Assembly (NCBI RefSeq): GCF_021532625.1
Contig: NZ_JAKGAR010000001.1
Location: 1,116,001 to 1,180,000 of the forward strand
DNA: 64,000 nt
Source of the DNA: Octadecabacter algicola
GTDB taxonomy: Bacteria; Pseudomonadota; Alphaproteobacteria; Rhodobacterales; Rhodobacteraceae
Direction: 5' to 3'
The notes below the pieces were generated by a model. That model saw only the letters and a list, made by a program, of their open reading frames with translations. It did no database searches and was not told the DNA's origin. Within the stretch, counting starts at the first letter, position 1, and each line of letters starts with the position of its first letter. The position numbers were made by a program, and so were the translations under genes. Positions 29,298-38,578 of the stretch are shown here, piece by piece.

Positions 29298-30041
29298 ATG
29301 GAAAACATCTTCAAAGCCCTCTCCGATCCAACCCGCCGCGAATTGCTTGATGCACTTCGCCGTCGCGATGGTCAGACTCTCACTGAGCTCGAAGCCTCTT
29401 TGTCGATGTCGCGGTTCGGGGTGATGAAACACCTCAAGCTGCTGGAGGATGCGAACCTCATCGTCACGCGCAAATCCGGTCGGTTCAAGCATCATTACCT
29501 CAACGCGCTGCCCCTGCAGGATGTCATGGACCGCTGGGTCGCGCCCTTTCTGCAACCCCAAGCCAAGGCCCTAAGCGATCTGAAAACCAAACTTGAAAAG
29601 GACACTTCGATGTCAAAACCCGATTTTATGATGCAAACCTTTATACGCTGCACCCAAGACGCCCTTTGGGATGCCCTAACCCAAGCCGATGACATGGCGC
29701 GTTACCACTTCGCTTGTAACACCGTGCAAGGCAACGCCACTGTGGGCGAGGAAACGACCTTTATCCTGCCGCATGGCGAAGCGATGTTGCGACAGGTCAC
29801 AACCGCCCTCGATCCTAAATCCAAAATCGCGATGACATTTGAACCGCTGTTCATGGGTCCCGACGCCCCGCCCAGCCACATGGTGTATTTGATCGAACCG
29901 CAGGGCGACACCTGCAAGCTGACAATCGAACACTACGATATGGCACCGGGCCAAGAAGGCTTTGCCGAAGGTTGGGCGCGTTTGGCGGCCTCCCTCAAAT
30001 CATTTCTTGAAACCGGTGAACCGCTTAAGGCGGCAATGTAA
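29298..30041 (+). CDS. ArsR-type regulator fused to an SRPBCC (AHSA1-like) domain
   Basis: A 247-residue two-domain protein. Residues 1-90 are a winged-helix ArsR-type domain (FKALSDPTRRELLDALR; SLSMSRFGVMKHLKLLEDANLI; RKSGRFKHHYLN). After a short linker, residues 104-245 form an SRPBCC/AHSA1-like domain with a hydrophobic ligand cavity (MMQTFIRCTQDALWDALTQ at its start). The two parts are often separate adjacent genes in other bacteria. Residue 104 is an internal ATG preceded by GAAAAGGA, so a free SRPBCC domain could also be made. It likely senses a small hydrophobic compound. MAPEG follows at 12 bases. Confidence 0.87.
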   Translation: MENIFKALSDPTRRELLDALRRRDGQTLTELEASLSMSRFGVMKHLKLLEDANLIVTRKSGRFKHHYLNALPLQDVMDRWVAPFLQPQAKALSDLKTKLEKDTSMSKPDFMMQTFIRCTQDALWDALTQADDMARYHFACNTVQGNATVGEETTFILPHGEAMLRQVTTALDPKSKIAMTFEPLFMGPDAPPSHMVYLIEPQGDTCKLTIEHYDMAPGQEGFAEGWARLAASLKSFLETGEPLKAAM

Positions 30042-31784: not shown

Positions 31785-33731
31785 ATGGCCCAGATCTCCC
31801 TTACATTTCCTGACGGCAATTCACGTGACTACGACGCAGGCGTAACCCCTGCTGAGGTTGCTGCATCTATTGCATCGTCCCTCGCGAAAAAGGCAATCTC
31901 TGCGACTGTAAACGGTCAGCACTGGGATATGCAGTGGCCGATCGATGCCGATGCATCCATTGCCATCAACACTATGAAGGACCAAGAACCTGCGCTGGAA
32001 TTGATCCGTCACGACCTCGCGCACATCATGGCGCGCGCGGTGCAGGAACTTTGGCCTGATACTCAGGTGACCATTGGACCCGTTATCAAAGACGGCTGGT
32101 ATTACGACTTTGATCGTAAGGAACCCTTCACACCAGAAGACCTCGCGGTGATCGAAAAGAAAATGAAAGAGATCATCAACAAACGCGACGCCGTCCGCAC
32201 CGAAGTGTGGGACCGCGATGTTGCAATCCAGCATTATAAAGACAAGGGCGAACCCTATAAGGTCGAACTGATCGACGCCATTCCAGGCGACGAGCCATTG
32301 CGCATGTATTGGCACGGCGATTGGCAGGACCTGTGCCGCGGTCCTCACTTGCAAAACACGGGCCAAGTTCCGGGCGATTCATGGAAACTGATGTCCATCG
32401 CTGGCGCCTACTGGCGTGGCGATAGCGACCGCGCGATGTTGCAACGGATCTACGGTGTGGCATTCCAGAATAAAGAACAGCTCAAGGCCCACATGAACAT
32501 GTTGGAGGAAGCGGCCAAACGCGACCACCGCAAGCTGGGTAAAGAAATGGGCTTGTTCCACATGCAAGAAGAAGCCCCCGGTCAGGTGTTCTGGCATCCG
32601 AACGGCTGGAAGGTTTATACAACCCTGCAAGATTACATGCGACGCAAACAAGAGGCTGGCGACTATGTAGAGGTGAACACTCCACAGGTTGTGGATCGTA
32701 AGCTTTGGGAAGCGTCCGGCCACTGGGACAAGTACCAAGAGAACATGTTTATCGTCGAAGTGGACGAAGATCACGCACGTGAGAAAGCGGTCAACGCGCT
32801 TAAGCCAATGAACTGCCCGTGCCACGTGCAGGTGTTTAACCAAGGTTTGAAATCTTACCGCGACCTGCCTTTGCGCATGGCCGAGTTTGGATCATGCGCA
32901 CGTTACGAGCCATCTGGTGCCTTGCACGGTATCATGCGTGTACGTGGCTTTACGCAAGACGATGGCCACATCTTCTGTTCTGAAGATCAGATCACGGACG
33001 AAACCAAAACCTTCATCGACTTCCTGTCCACGGTCTACTCTGACCTTGGCTTTGACAACTGGAGCATCAAACTGTCCACCCGCCCTGAAAAGCGGATTGG
33101 TTCGGATGAGGTCTGGGACCGGATGGAAGAAGCCTTGGGAGATGCCTGTAAGGCCGCTGGCCACGACTTCGAAATCCTTGAAGGCGAAGGCGCGTTCTAT
33201 GGTCCGAAGTTGGAATTCACTTTGACCGATGCAATTGGTCGAGAGTGGCAGTGCGGTACTTTGCAGGTTGATAGCAACCTGCCTGAACGGTTGGATGCGA
33301 ACTATATCGGCAAGGATGGCGAAAAGCACCGCCCTGTTATGTTGCACCGTGCGACGCTCGGGTCCTTCGAGCGATTCATCGGTATCTTGATCGAAGAGCA
33401 CGCAGGAAAGCTACCGTTCTGGCTTGCACCGCGTCAGGTTGTTGTGGCGTCCATCATCTCGGACGCGGATGATTATGTGCAAGAAGTCGTCGCTGCCTTG
33501 AGAGCCGTTGGCGTGCGGGCCGAGGCCGACATCCGCAACGAGAAGATCAACTATAAGGTCCGTGAACACAGCTTGGGCAAGGTTCCGGTGATTCTGGCAT
33601 GCGGTGCACGCGAGGTTGAAGAGCGTACAGTCTCAGTTCGCCGCCTTGGTGAGAAGCAAACATCTGTAACATCTATGGATGCGATCCTTGAAGACCTGCA
33701 AAAATCGGCCACACCACCCGATCTTTTGTAA
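31785..33731 (+). CDS. thrS: Threonyl-tRNA synthetase
   Basis: ThrS charges tRNA-Thr in the cytoplasm. The 648-residue protein has the full domain order: TGS domain at about residues 1-62, editing domain with [11 protein letters not shown] (the HxxxH editing motif) at about 75-240, class II catalytic core with the zinc cysteine in [11 protein letters not shown] and motif 2 at [21 protein letters not shown], motif 3 at [19 protein letters not shown], and the anticodon domain at the C-terminus. A clear GAGGAG precedes the ATG, and a strong terminator follows. It is monocistronic. Confidence 0.98.
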
Positions 33732-33756
33732 CATTCTGCACCGCAGCAGTGTTACA

Positions 33757-33791
33757 GGCCCGATCGTCTTTGACGGTCGGGCCTTATTTTT
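33757..33791 (+). terminator. Rho-independent terminator of thrS
   Basis: GGCCCGATCGTC (33757-33768) pairs with GACGGTCGGGCC (33772-33783), with one wobble pair, followed by TTATTTTT. It begins 26 bases after the thrS stop codon and separates it from the bufferin operon. Confidence 0.9.
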
Positions 33792-33939
33792 ATGGAAATC
33801 CGAACCGCTACGTTCTGACATCAGATAACGCACACGCGATACACGCGCCCGTGAATGGCTTGTTAAGCCAGCTCCAGCATAAAGTTAGGAAGTCGCCAAT
33901 CACGGCGCATATCTGCAACTGAACAACAGGAATTATCCC

Positions 33940-34242
33940 ATGTCCAAGACAACAACTACACTCGCACTCGCAGCTTCCGTAGCAACAGCAATCGCTGGCC
34001 TGTCCACAGCAGCTCACGCTCAGGAAAACGAAAAGTGCTTCGGTATTTCCCTTGCTGGTGAAAACGACTGTGCAGCTGGCCCAGGCACAACATGCGCCGG
34101 TACATCCACTGTTGATTACCAAGGCAACGCTTGGACATTCGTTCCAGCGGGCACATGTGAAACAACAACAATCGAAGCTATGGGCGACTCCCCAGAGCGC
34201 ATGGGTTCATTGACTGAGCTGGACCGCGACATCCCAGCATAA
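33940..34242 (+). CDS. bufA1: Bufferin precursor peptide, DUF2282 family (BufA1-like)
   Basis: A 100-residue secreted RiPP precursor. Residues 1 to about 27 form a Sec-type signal peptide (cleavage after AHA). The core carries four cysteines at positions 33, 44, 52 and 73, the pattern of DUF2282 bufferins (KCFG, NDCAAG, TTCAG, GTCE). In characterised Caulobacter bufferin, the MNIO enzyme turns central cysteines into thiooxazoles that bind copper in the periplasm. The C-terminal 25 residues are acidic. It is the first gene of the bufA-bufB-bufC-DoxX operon, and a hairpin follows its stop codon. The maturation state here is inferred from family and context. Confidence 0.88.
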
Positions 34243-34267
34243 GCTGATCCAGATCGTTTCATGACTT

Positions 34268-34297
34268 TGGCGCCCATCCGCATTAGGGTGGGCGCCA
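34268..34297 (+). terminator. Intercistronic hairpin between bufA and bufB
   Basis: TGGCGCCCATCC (34268-34279) pairs with GGGTGGGCGCCA (34286-34297), 12 base pairs with one wobble and a six-base loop. No U tract follows; the bufB ribosome-binding site (AAGGAG) lies just after it. It probably stabilises or partly terminates the message so that the precursor exceeds the maturation enzymes. Confidence 0.6.
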
Positions 34298-34317
34298 TAC
34301 CTTAAAGGAGCCTGACC

Positions 34318-35169
34318 ATGCTTGATGCCACGCGACACCCCTCCCTGCCCAATCGCCCAGGTGTCGGCTACAAGGCCCAGCACTTTAATGACATCATGAA
34401 AGACGCAGGCCCCGTCGGCTGGCTCGAAATTCATGCTGAAAACTATATGGGCATGGGTGGCCGTCCACTCGCGCAATTGCGCCACCTCTCCGAACAATTT
34501 CCGTTTTCCGTCCACGGTGTAGGTCTAAGCATTGGCGGCGAAGGCCGCTTGGATGCCGACCACCTTGCACGTTTGAAAACCCTGTGTGACTGGCTGAACC
34601 CTGCCAGTTTTTCCGAACACCTTGCGTGGTCGACCCACGAAAGCGCGTTTCTGAACGACCTTCTGCCCCTGCCCTACACGGCGGCAACCGTCACCCGCGT
34701 TGCCGATCACATTGACGAAGTGCAATCTGTGCTTGGACGCCAGATGCTTCTTGAAAACCCGTCCAGCTACCTCGCCTTCGCCGAAAGCGACATGTCCGAA
34801 ACAGATTTCCTTTCTGAAATCGTGACGCGAACGGGCTGTGGGCTGTTGTTGGATGTGAACAACGTTTTCGTGTCCGCCGTGAACCTTGGCTATTCCCCGC
34901 AAGGCTACATCGACGACTACCCCCTTAATGCTGTTAAGGAAATTCACCTTGGCGGCCACGATGAGGATGAAGATGAAACAGGTGCGCCCATGCTTATCGA
35001 CAGCCACGGCGCTGAAGTCGTCGATCCTGTTTGGGCACTGCTTGACTACACCTTGGCCAAATCCGGCCCCAAGCCATTGTTGATCGAATGGGACACCGAT
35101 GTCCCTGAATGGTCTGTTCTGGTCGAAGAAACCAAACGCGCTGACGCCGCCCTTTCGGTGCTCGCATGA
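34318..35169 (+). CDS. bufB: DUF692 family multinuclear non-haem iron oxidase (BufB, MNIO)
   Basis: A 283-residue TIM-barrel-fold iron enzyme of the MNIO/DUF692 family that modifies cysteines of the bufferin precursor. Metal-ligand and family segments visible are WLEIHAENYMG (about residues 36-46), HGVGLSIGG (about 64-72), SEHLAW (about 100-105), LLDVNNVFVSA (about 178-188), EIHLGGHDEDE (about 206-216), DSHGAEV, and LIEWDTDVPEW. The AAGGAG ribosome-binding site is well placed. The last four bases (ATGA) overlap bufC, so it is translationally coupled to its partner protein. Confidence 0.93.
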   Translation: MLDATRHPSLPNRPGVGYKAQHFNDIMKDAGPVGWLEIHAENYMGMGGRPLAQLRHLSEQFPFSVHGVGLSIGGEGRLDADHLARLKTLCDWLNPASFSEHLAWSTHESAFLNDLLPLPYTAATVTRVADHIDEVQSVLGRQMLLENPSSYLAFAESDMSETDFLSEIVTRTGCGLLLDVNNVFVSAVNLGYSPQGYIDDYPLNAVKEIHLGGHDEDEDETGAPMLIDSHGAEVVDPVWALLDYTLAKSGPKPLLIEWDTDVPEWSVLVEETKRADAALSVLA

Positions 35170-35900
35170 TCACGACGCAGACGGAATTTCGGACGGCCCT
35201 TCTGGACCCTGCTAGCCCACCGCCAGAAGGTGTGCGAAACCCTGACGGTGTACAGGCCATCAAACGGTTTGACGTATACCGCAACAATGTCGCGGTGAGC
35301 CTGACAGACGCATTGGGGGCTGCCTTTCCCGTCGTTGCCAAGCTCGTCGGCGATGACTTTTTTCGCGCAATGGCAGGGGTTTATCTGCGGGCACACCCAC
35401 CGACTTCACCTGTGATGATGTTTTACGGCGAAGAGATGCCGGAATTCCTTGCGGGGTTCGGCCCAGCACAATCCGTGCCCTATTTGCCAGATGTGGCCCG
35501 TCTTGAGCTGGCCTTGCGCCACAGCTATCACGCCAGCGATGCGACCCCGATTGCAGCGGATGCATTGGCCCAAATCGCCCCTGACAGCCTGCCGCAGGTG
35601 ACTTTCGCCTTTGCGCCTTCTGTTTACCTGATCCCGTCGCGTTACCCGCTACAGTCCATTTGGGCGGCCAATACATCGGGCGGCGATATCGCAAAAGTCG
35701 CGCAACCAGCACTGGTAACGCGCCCCGAATTTGACCCAATGGTCGATGCGTTGACGCAAGAACAAGCCGCCGTCACCCAAGCCCTGATCGGCGGACAACC
35801 GTTGGGCCAAGCCCTCCAAAGTGGCGACGCTGGCTTTGATCTTGGCCCGCTTCTCGGCCTTCTTTTATCCCGCAATGCACTGATTTCCCTCAAGACCTGA
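35166..35900 (+). CDS. bufC: DUF2063 family MNIO partner protein (BufC)
   Basis: A 244-residue protein whose N-terminal half is the DUF2063 domain (FDVYRNNVAVSLTDALGAAFPVVAKLVG, with the family YRNN motif), followed by a more variable C-terminal domain. In characterised RiPP pathways, such partners recognise the precursor peptide and bring it to the MNIO enzyme. The older name as a DNA-binding domain is not supported by function. It overlaps bufB by four bases and is followed at 12 bases by the DoxX gene. It is cytoplasmic, like its enzyme partner. Confidence 0.9.
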   Translation: MITTQTEFRTALLDPASPPPEGVRNPDGVQAIKRFDVYRNNVAVSLTDALGAAFPVVAKLVGDDFFRAMAGVYLRAHPPTSPVMMFYGEEMPEFLAGFGPAQSVPYLPDVARLELALRHSYHASDATPIAADALAQIAPDSLPQVTFAFAPSVYLIPSRYPLQSIWAANTSGGDIAKVAQPALVTRPEFDPMVDALTQEQAAVTQALIGGQPLGQALQSGDAGFDLGPLLGLLLSRNALISLKT

Positions 35901-35912
35901 AAGACCAATACC

Positions 35913-36446
35913 ATGTTCGCAACTTATGACCGCATCACCCAATCCCTAAACGCCTCTGCAGCGGCGATCCTACCTACTTTGGCCCGTTTCGTCTTTGCTG
36001 CGACGTTGTTGTTCTATTTCTGGAACTCCGCGAACACTAAATGGGATGGTACGCCGTTTTCACCCGGCGTCGGCGGCTACGCGCAGATCTTCCCAAAGGC
36101 GATGGAGGCCGTTGGCTATGACATCAGCCAAATGTCGACCTTCCATTGGGCGGTCGTTGTTGCAGGTACCTTGGCAGAATACATCTTGCCCCTGCTGATC
36201 GTGATCGGGTTGTTCACCCGCTTTGCGGCACTCGGCATGATTGGCTTTGTAGTCGTTCAATCCCTTACCGACCTGTACGGCCACGGCGGGATTGCGCATA
36301 CCGAAACGCTGGGCAAATGGTTTGACGGGCTGCCAACCGGCGCGATCTTGGACCAACGTGCGTTCTGGATGGTTGTTCTGGTGACGCTGGTGCTAAAAGG
36401 TGGCGGCCCATTGTCCGTGGACCGCCTGCTCAGCAAAAACCGTTAA
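35913..36446 (+). CDS. DoxX family membrane protein, bufferin-operon member
   Basis: A 177-residue inner-membrane protein with four helices. The family hallmarks are the first helix FVFAATLLFYFWNSA, the loop GTLAEYILPLLIVIGLFTRFAALG (the conserved Glu of DoxX) and the final helix near WMVVLVTLVLKGGG. DoxX genes recur in bufferin operons, where they may pass electrons or help redox balance during maturation; the role is not proven. It ends four bases past the stop of the convergent small membrane-protein gene. Confidence 0.88.
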   Translation: MFATYDRITQSLNASAAAILPTLARFVFAATLLFYFWNSANTKWDGTPFSPGVGGYAQIFPKAMEAVGYDISQMSTFHWAVVVAGTLAEYILPLLIVIGLFTRFAALGMIGFVVVQSLTDLYGHGGIAHTETLGKWFDGLPTGAILDQRAFWMVVLVTLVLKGGGPLSVDRLLSKNR

Positions 36447-36808
36447 AAGTGCGCGACGTCTTCATCCGGCTTGCCGGCGGCTATCGCTAGGATGCCGCCC
36501 AAGCCGGCGAACCCGATCGGGAACATCGTCGCCACATTAAAACCAAAGGCGGCATAGAACAGCCCTGCACCAATCAGCAGGGCGATCCCGCCCCACAGCG
36601 CGCGCGCCTTGGCCATCGCACCACCCGCGATGCAGGCCAGCGGCGCGGCAAAACTTGCGAATTGAACAAATCCGGGGCGTTCAAACATGCCTAATTGGCT
36701 TGCTTCGGGCACCTCATTGGTCAGGCTGACCCAGCCGTAGCCGAACAAGCCGACGAAGATGCCCATGATCCCTGCAATGATGCCTAAGATGGCTGCTGCG
36801 TTACGCAT
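36443..36808 (-). CDS. Small four-helix membrane protein
   Basis: A 121-residue protein made almost entirely of hydrophobic helices (about residues 5-26, 49-66, 70-85 and 92-108), with a short acidic C-terminus (KPDEDVAHF). I do not recognise the family with confidence. The start is the ATG at 36808, whose A is shared with the last base of the upstream stop codon (TAATG), coupling it to the Spx/ArsC-like gene. It converges with the DoxX gene and overlaps its end by four bases. Confidence 0.68.
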   Translation of the reverse strand: MRNAAAILGIIAGIMGIFVGLFGYGWVSLTNEVPEASQLGMFERPGFVQFASFAAPLACIAGGAMAKARALWGGIALLIGAGLFYAAFGFNVATMFPIGFAGLGGILAIAAGKPDEDVAHF

Positions 36809-37152
36809 TATTCTACTCCTATTTCGGCCTTGGTAGCAGGTGTCCAACCTTGATACCATGCGCCATCAACCTCGATCATAGGACGTTTCATCAAGGTCGG
36901 GTGGGCCGCCAAAAGCGCGGCTGGATCGCGGGCACGGTCTTCTTCACTTAATCCCCGCCACGTTGTGGATCGGGTGTTAAGAACCCCTGCCCCAAACGCA
37001 TTGATCATTGCTGCTTGATCTGCAGCACTTACGCCATCGGCACGAACGTCGATGACTTCGACCTCGCGGTCAGCAAGCTGCTTGAGTGCCTTGCGACACG
37101 TATCACATGTTTTTAAGCCAAAGAACCGCAAGACTGCCTCCGTTTTAATCAT
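36808..37152 (-). CDS. Spx/ArsC/MgsR-family protein (YffB-like)
   Basis: A 114-residue thioredoxin-fold protein with the CxxC motif in FFGLKTCDTCRKAL. The Arg of the family (near KRPMIEV) is present. Members include arsenate reductases, the Spx regulator and YffB-like glutathione-dependent reductases; the CxxC pair and operon context do not decide between them, and no ars genes are nearby. Start sites at 37188 and 37164 are also possible; I prefer 37152 because the fold begins there, although its ribosome-binding site is no better. It is coupled (TAATG) to the next membrane-protein gene. Confidence 0.78.
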   Translation of the reverse strand: MIKTEAVLRFFGLKTCDTCRKALKQLADREVEVIDVRADGVSAADQAAMINAFGAGVLNTRSTTWRGLSEEDRARDPAALLAAHPTLMKRPMIEVDGAWYQGWTPATKAEIGVE

Positions 37153-37222
37153 TTTTCGTATCATCCCCTGATTTCTCAGGATTGTCATTTGCCTTTTTCA
37201 TTCAAGTCTTAACGGTAGCGCA

Positions 37223-38147: not shown

Positions 38148-38471
38148 CTAGAGCCATTCTGCTTTCGTGGCTTCGCCCCACCCCACCGTAAACTTGGTTC
38201 CGTCCGTTATGACTGGCCGCGCCATGACGGCTGGAGTATCGGCCAGCTGGGCCTCGGCTTCGCTTTCTTTCATCCAAGCGTTTAAGTTGCGAAAGGCTTG
38301 GGATTTCCGATCCACCAGATTGTCACCGAACTCAGCTATCAGGGCTGCCCACTCTTCTTCTGAAAGTGGCTCTGCCCGCACATCACGGAAGGTGACCTTG
38401 ATCCCCTCGTCCTCAAACGCCTTAAGCGCTTTCTTACAGTCGGTGCACGTTGGTAGGCCGTAAAGGATCAT
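38148..38471 (-). CDS. Spx/ArsC-family thioredoxin-fold protein, second copy
   Basis: A 107-residue protein with the CxxC motif in YGLPTCTDCKKAL and the conserved Arg near VMARPVIT, the same family as the gene at 36808. The two share family layout but are not close duplicates. The ATG at 38471 follows AACC-rich sequence without a strong ribosome-binding site, but earlier in-frame starts lie in non-conserved sequence. Likely cytoplasmic thiol chemistry (glutathione-linked reductase or regulator); the exact substrate is unknown. Confidence 0.8.
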   Translation of the reverse strand: MILYGLPTCTDCKKALKAFEDEGIKVTFRDVRAEPLSEEEWAALIAEFGDNLVDRKSQAFRNLNAWMKESEAEAQLADTPAVMARPVITDGTKFTVGWGEATKAEWL

Positions 38472-38578
38472 GAGGTTTGGCTTTCTGTTGTTTGAGGGAC
38501 TGTGCCCAAAATTCATCTGAAAAACCACCACCCTATCGGCTAGCGACGCCCCTGACCCGCCATCGGGAGGCAGCAACT

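Follow-up and report, generated by a model that had tools for sequence, protein, structure and literature searches.

In 31 of the 45 family genomes (Rhodobacteraceae) that carry a bufferin gene, one conserved DNA element appears to replace the sigma-factor switch of Caulobacter. We describe it here from Octadecabacter algicola, in a window of 64,000 nucleotides (the whole stretch of DNA that was analysed), where it precedes a four-gene operon of the Buf1 type, for a bufferin, a modified peptide that takes up surplus copper in related bacteria. In our overall reading, to which we give about an even chance, a possibly single-target copper regulator acting on this tandem-palindrome element replaces the SigF/NrsF system of other lineages of the family in the roseobacter buf operon, and an intercistronic hairpin and ribosomal-protein-like codons on bufA alone would yield a large surplus of the peptide, to act as a stoichiometric buffer. 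Were this true, the element would be a lead to a new copper sensor. The genes themselves are one more well-conserved marine member of a large known class and are ordinary for it; what is new is the noncoding control part. The element, its mutual exclusivity with NrsF and the pattern of precursor excess may not be what a specialist would expect.

A sequence-only reading had described this region as a complete bufferin operon in a roseobacter host, with a precursor, a DUF692 enzyme, a DUF2063 partner and a DoxX protein. Our reading-frame check bore out the four ORFs (Table 1), their common strand and positions, and the four bases (35166-35169) that bufB and bufC share. Each product exceeded the curated cut-off of its Pfam family (DUF2282, 84.5 bits; MbnB_TglH_ChrH, 348.8 bits; DUF2063, 92.8 bits; DoxX, 32.6 bits), and BufB also passed the NCBIfam model NF050167, "MNIO family bufferin maturase", with 370 bits (cut-off 310). 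BufC and DoxX each scored 36 bits against their Hvf equivalog models in NCBIfam, under the cut-offs of 142 and 80, respectively, and no NCBIfam model matched BufA. The genome contains a single MNIO match and a single DUF2282 match at an E value of 0.001. The Ka/Ks ratios of the four genes, measured against three related loci (L082, L033 and L034), are 0.03-0.15. An Rfam search gave one chance-level match, in bufB (15.4 bits, E 0.18). The assignment to a complete Buf1 operon holds in both the sequence and the fold tests, and positions 33940-36446 very probably constitute an intact operon of this type; chance falls well short of explaining such a set of matches.

Table 1. Features of the buf locus in O. 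algicola, numbered from the first base of the window
Feature	Position	Strand	Basis
thrS hairpin resembling a terminator (13 pairs, with T-run)	33756..33784	+	Terminator scan
Conserved upstream element	33826..33861	+	Shared by bufA leaders; matrix and pattern scans
-10-like hexamer TAAAGT	33880..33885	+	Spacing conserved among loci
Small hairpin at predicted 5' end of message	33892..33908	+	Stem counts across loci
bufA, Buf1 (DUF2282) precursor, 100 aa	33940..34242	+	ORF; Pfam; Cys 33/44/52/73
Intercistronic bufA/bufB hairpin, 12 bp, no T-run	34268..34297	+	Folding, z -4.0
bufB, MNIO maturase, 283 aa	34318..35169	+	Pfam; NCBIfam; solved relatives
bufC, DUF2063 partner protein, 244 aa	35166..35900	+	Pfam; structure model
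doxX, DoxX-family membrane protein, 177 aa	35913..36446	+	ORF; Pfam

The locus was compared with the best 80 of 258 BufB relatives from a scan of genome contigs. Judged by BufB, the nearest relative with a name is Octadecabacter sp. B2R22 (97%; L082). Among these best 80 loci the order bufA-bufB-bufC is invariant, doxX is found in 79 (partial in L043; the contig of L094 ends before it), and thrS lies upstream in 78. Of 101 whole genomes, that of O. algicola and those of 100 relatives, 61 have bufA, namely 16 of the 19 genus genomes, 29 of the 42 from elsewhere in the family and 16 of the 40 from elsewhere in the class. Downstream of the operon, two minus-strand genes close to each other (36808-37188 and 38148-38576) encode ArsC-family proteins, and relatives of the type at 38148-38576 lie downstream in many related loci.

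We aligned 85 precursors, comprising that of the window, 79 others that lead their operons and five second copies. All 85 have Cys33, Cys44 and Cys73 and 84 have Cys52, so that 84 precursors have all four; the 100-residue length and the four cysteines of the earlier reading stand. In the precursor of L094 (1563-1784, a Planktotalea MAG contig) an internal deletion takes out Cys52, which may be an assembly error, the record title giving a coverage of 1.9. By eye, the N-terminus of BufA has a positive and hydrophobic stretch and the residues AHA before Gln28, as a putative Sec signal peptide would; Ala27 is invariant in 32 sequences. Residues 78-100 (34171-34239) form a conserved C-terminal tail outside the Pfam domain, ending like LDRDLPA, in which Arg87, Ser90, Leu91, Arg96, Asp97 and Pro99 are kept in at least 95% of the 85 sequences. 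The structure model of BufA (pLDDT 55) is too poor for reading the disulphide. A search of solved sequences with BufA gave nothing, at the thresholds applied, beyond two chance-level matches. The second copies come from tandem bufA pairs in L093, L099, L109, L110 and L112, in which the upstream element precedes the first copy and is missing before the second, which adjoins bufB. By eye, the two copies in L109 and L110 have a GC-rich hairpin between them.

The closest solved relatives of BufB are 3bww, TglH and MbnB. For BufC, no solved sequence came out as a relative at the thresholds applied. Its structure model, built from 45 sequences, has a pLDDT of 93, and its top structural matches are 8hci_A (E 1e-5) and 8hi7_A (E 2e-5), from the TglHI complex; we took chain A of these entries to be TglI because another chain bears the DUF692 name. 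The match to NGO1945 (3dee) has an E value of 5e-3, and that to chain C of the MbnABC complex is far weaker (E 0.4). Superposition on 8hci_A, 8hi7_A and 3dee gave TM scores of 0.49-0.58 and rmsd values of 6.0-6.8. As modelled, BufC resembles the known MNIO partner proteins and is a type-1 partner, with DUF2063 and an RRE-type domain.

Thiooxazole chemistry, export and copper binding are here read across from relatives. In Buf1 bufferins, according to the portions of PMC12452194 used here, modification falls on the two central cysteines, with a disulphide joining the first to the last. A mass loss should therefore appear at Cys44 and Cys52 and not at all four cysteines. In the cytoplasm, BufB and BufC would convert Cys44 and Cys52 to 5-thiooxazoles. 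The peptide would then be exported by Sec and cut after Ala27, the Cys33-Cys73 disulphide would close, and the exported peptide would bind copper in the periplasm, with an accessory role for DoxX. The copper role, carried over from the Caulobacter Buf1, is likely, and taken together we have good confidence in a working Buf1 operon with a copper function. The same gene set is also known as the gold-induced gig operons, MerC fusions exist and doxX could be a sign of oxidative or sulphur stress (all from portions of PMC12452194), and the peptide could accordingly serve another metal or stress (gold, mercury or oxidative), or copper uptake instead of copper protection. We consider this improbable, given that the sole Buf1 with a published function in the portions of PMC12452194 cited protects against copper, and that loss of sigF makes Caulobacter copper-sensitive (PMC8224329, in part).

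The upstream element has the consensus TcACGcacgCGtGAtgCACGgccCcGTGAATGGc, a block of about 33-36 bp of CACG/CGTGA repeats. It is built from two TnACG-N4-CGTGA palindromes with a 15-bp period, followed by ATGG. Many loci also have the sequence CTCAC 10 bp upstream of the element, which the window does not have at that place. Over 79 loci, conservation is 0.99 bits per column in the element versus 0.19 in the next 20 bases. A matrix trained on 13 genus sequences was tested on 67 operon leaders outside the training set, a number that omits the five second precursor copies, which have no element, and L079, in which bufA begins at the contig end. All but one of the 67 (L100) scored higher than any of 335 dinucleotide shuffles, a count that, like those for the hairpins below, is inflated by shared descent because this is largely one syntenic locus with thrS upstream.

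The element is single-copy in the O. algicola genome, where the next-best match has three mismatches, and a stricter pattern gave 19 matches in 61 genomes, all 19 of them beside bufA by coordinates, while the reversed control pattern gave none. Within the genus, the element is found in all 16 genomes with bufA and in none of the three without it, two of which are incomplete (88% and 79%). Outside the genus the strict pattern gave 3 matches versus 15 for the matrix, and the strict form thus misses most of the element-bearing genomes there. A literature search covering titles and the beginnings of abstracts in one library returned nothing on the element, on its exclusivity with NrsF, on an excess of precursor or on the control of bufferin genes in roseobacters, nor do the words promoter, operator, Rhodobacter or Roseo occur in the main text of PMC12452194.

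The Caulobacter buf operons depend on SigF and are controlled by it together with the anti-sigma factor NrsF, according to portions of PMC3511200 and PMC8224329. A SigF/NrsF-type ECF sigma system could control the O. algicola operon in the same way, and eight of the 45 family genomes with bufA do have NrsF, each with a GTAAC...CG site 75-89 nt before bufA. We regard such control in O. algicola as scarcely credible: it is contradicted by the absence of NrsF from its own genome and from 18 other genus genomes, and of any SigF-like site before its bufA. Across the family, the element and NrsF are mutually exclusive among the 45 genomes with bufA that were searched. The element occurs in 31 genomes, NrsF in 8, neither in 6 and both in none, so that NrsF is present in 0 of 31 element-bearing genomes versus 8 of 14 element-less ones (Fisher's p 1e-5, or 7e-4 without the genus, with relatedness ignored). 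The element was called in these genomes at matrix scores of at least 19.5, the next score being -4.6; the training loci overlap some of the family genomes, and the clean test of the matrix is the set of 67 held-out leaders. By eye, two of the six genomes with neither (G025 and G035) have a shifted or partial element. The GTAAC...CG site occurs once among the 31 element genomes, at -231. NrsF is found in 10 family genomes altogether, two of which are without bufA. One NrsF genome (G028) has thrS upstream too, so the exchange of control could have happened at one locus.

Bufferin operons also occur on plasmids. There are 356 plasmid records with a BufB relative, of which we examined three, from Tritonibacter, Pseudorhodobacter and Paracoccus. 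The bufferin operon of Tritonibacter mobilis plasmid p2 (a 1.19-Mb record; L170) has the element, with 23.8 bits, and the ORF upstream fits thrS by size and place. The Pseudorhodobacter and Paracoccus records had element matrix scores below 0, and in the Paracoccus record a sigma-70 factor and a DUF1109 protein are encoded downstream of the operon. DUF1109 is used as a label for the SigF anti-sigma factor in the portion of PMC3511200 cited.

The O. algicola genome encodes a CueR above its cut-off, adjoining a copper ATPase gene; a second copper ATPase is encoded elsewhere. A copper sensor is therefore at hand, and CueR could control the operon directly. Before the CueR-adjacent ATPase we identified by eye a dyad between TTGACC and TATAT, an arrangement that we take to be the CueR geometry. 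The dyads of the buf promoter instead lie upstream, and the 20 bases past the element are unconserved. On this comparison of geometry, direct control by CueR looks very unlikely. We lean towards a regulator other than SigF or CueR.

No regulator was found directly beside the operon among the 45 largest ORF clusters listed for the 80 loci (best of 258), with clusters judged by sequence start, size and position. An ArsR-like HTH fused to an AHSA1 domain is encoded about 4 kb upstream (29298-30041, plus strand) and belongs to a cluster of 26 loci. We rejected this protein as the regulator: element genomes such as G006, G011, G015, G020 and G021, which are 99-100% complete, have no close relative of it, and the bufA-less genomes G019 and G050 do have one.

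The terminator-like hairpin of thrS separates that gene from the buf operon, one of three such sites across the region, which is no excess over the shuffle mean of 3.6. An inverted repeat, TGTAACA...TGTTACA, lies at the thrS stop codon (33727-33756); it is nearly constant by eye in 13 genus sequences, and the end of the thrS coding sequence constrains part of it. A promoter scan found no sigma-70 consensus promoter in the region. A -10-like TAnnnT hexamer lies 21 nt past the element in 54 of 79 loci, 20 nt past it in 7 and 25 nt past it in 1, and is missing in the searched range in the other 17. We infer a transcription start near 33892, which places the element at about -66 to -34. The transcript would thus start some 50 nt ahead of bufA, at a promoter in which no -35 box follows the sigma-70 consensus, and a putative regulator binding the CACG/CGTGA element would most likely switch the operon on. 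The predicted position is the place of an activator, and a repressor would fit too. The element could be the operator of a repressor, with copper or some other stress lifting the repression, for which its two palindromes are equally suitable and its extension to about -34, touching the -35 region, is apt; the absent sigma-70 consensus promoter is weak evidence that suits an activator better, and we think a repressor somewhat unlikely.

The second part of our reading concerns dosage. We calculated a codon adaptation index from 20 translation genes of the same genome, chosen by eye. When left out in turn, these reference genes have indices of 0.67-0.85 (median 0.74). The index of bufA is 0.845 and those of bufB, bufC and doxX are 0.53-0.59, so that bufA alone of the four genes has a codon usage like that of ribosomal genes. 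Among 53 ORFs of the window the median is 0.50 and the maximum, for ketol-acid reductoisomerase, 0.83, and only 0.7% of 5000 length-matched pieces reach the index of bufA. Synonymous divergence is lowest in bufA in all three comparisons (0.26, 0.30 and 0.57 versus 0.41-1.93 for the other genes).

Between bufA and bufB lies a hairpin of -30.9 kcal/mol. The intergenic region is at least 30 nt long in 76 of 81 sequences, and in 74 of these 76 it has a stem of at least 8 pairs, with z at or below -2 in 68. The stems differ in sequence across genera, which speaks for conservation of structure. A further 34 loci, 32 of them measurable, gave such a stem in 25, z at or below -2 in 20 and a T-rich tail in 5. 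The three measurable loci outside the family (L157-L159) had no such stem, and in L160 and L161 the gap is too short. The hairpin could be an ordinary terminator that limits bufB, bufC and doxX, with no stabilised bufA message, and this is a serious if less probable alternative. A strong hairpin can slow the polymerase, and five of the 76 loci do show 5 or more T among the 8 bases that follow; such a tail is missing in the other 71, that of the window included, and this hairpin is not among the sites reported by the terminator scan. We somewhat prefer the view, drawn from codons and hairpin, that the BufA precursor is made in excess over its modifying enzymes. Both the message and the protein of bufA would be in excess: bufA has the codons of the most-expressed genes, and the strong hairpin after it would probably protect a short bufA message or trim read-through. 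The pattern suggests a chelator made in stoichiometric amounts and enzymes made in catalytic amounts from one operon.

The message may begin with a further, smaller hairpin at its predicted 5' end. Here 36 of 62 loci have a stem of 5 or more pairs, versus a maximum of 21 in shuffles that keep single-base content only. By segment, the count is 38 of 62 versus 13 of 61 in the next segment, and segments upstream reach up to 30 of 62. The copy in the window is weak (4 pairs, z -0.8). RNAalifold found no common structure in the 62 sequences, in which MAFFT misplaces the 3' arms of the hairpin.

Three known systems can be compared with the O. algicola operon. The gig operons, named for their induction by gold, are bufferin clusters too according to portions of PMC12452194. 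The captophorins fontiphorin, oxazolin and gonophorin, which are 5-thiooxazole peptides, are likewise made with an MNIO and a DUF2063 partner, and DUF2282 precursors form one of the three captophorin precursor groups (PMC13097082, in part). These three differ from our operon in that the precursor here is of the DUF2282 type and not an EGKCG repeat, and in that BufC and DoxX fall under the Hvf equivalog cut-offs. In gene content our operon is like the Caulobacter Buf1 operon CC3254-CC3257, which encodes DUF2282, DUF692 (MNIO), DUF2063 and DoxX proteins in the identical order (PMC3511200, in part); the four conserved cysteines are a further likeness. Unlike Caulobacter, O. algicola is without NrsF and without a SigF-like site, and has the single-copy element instead.
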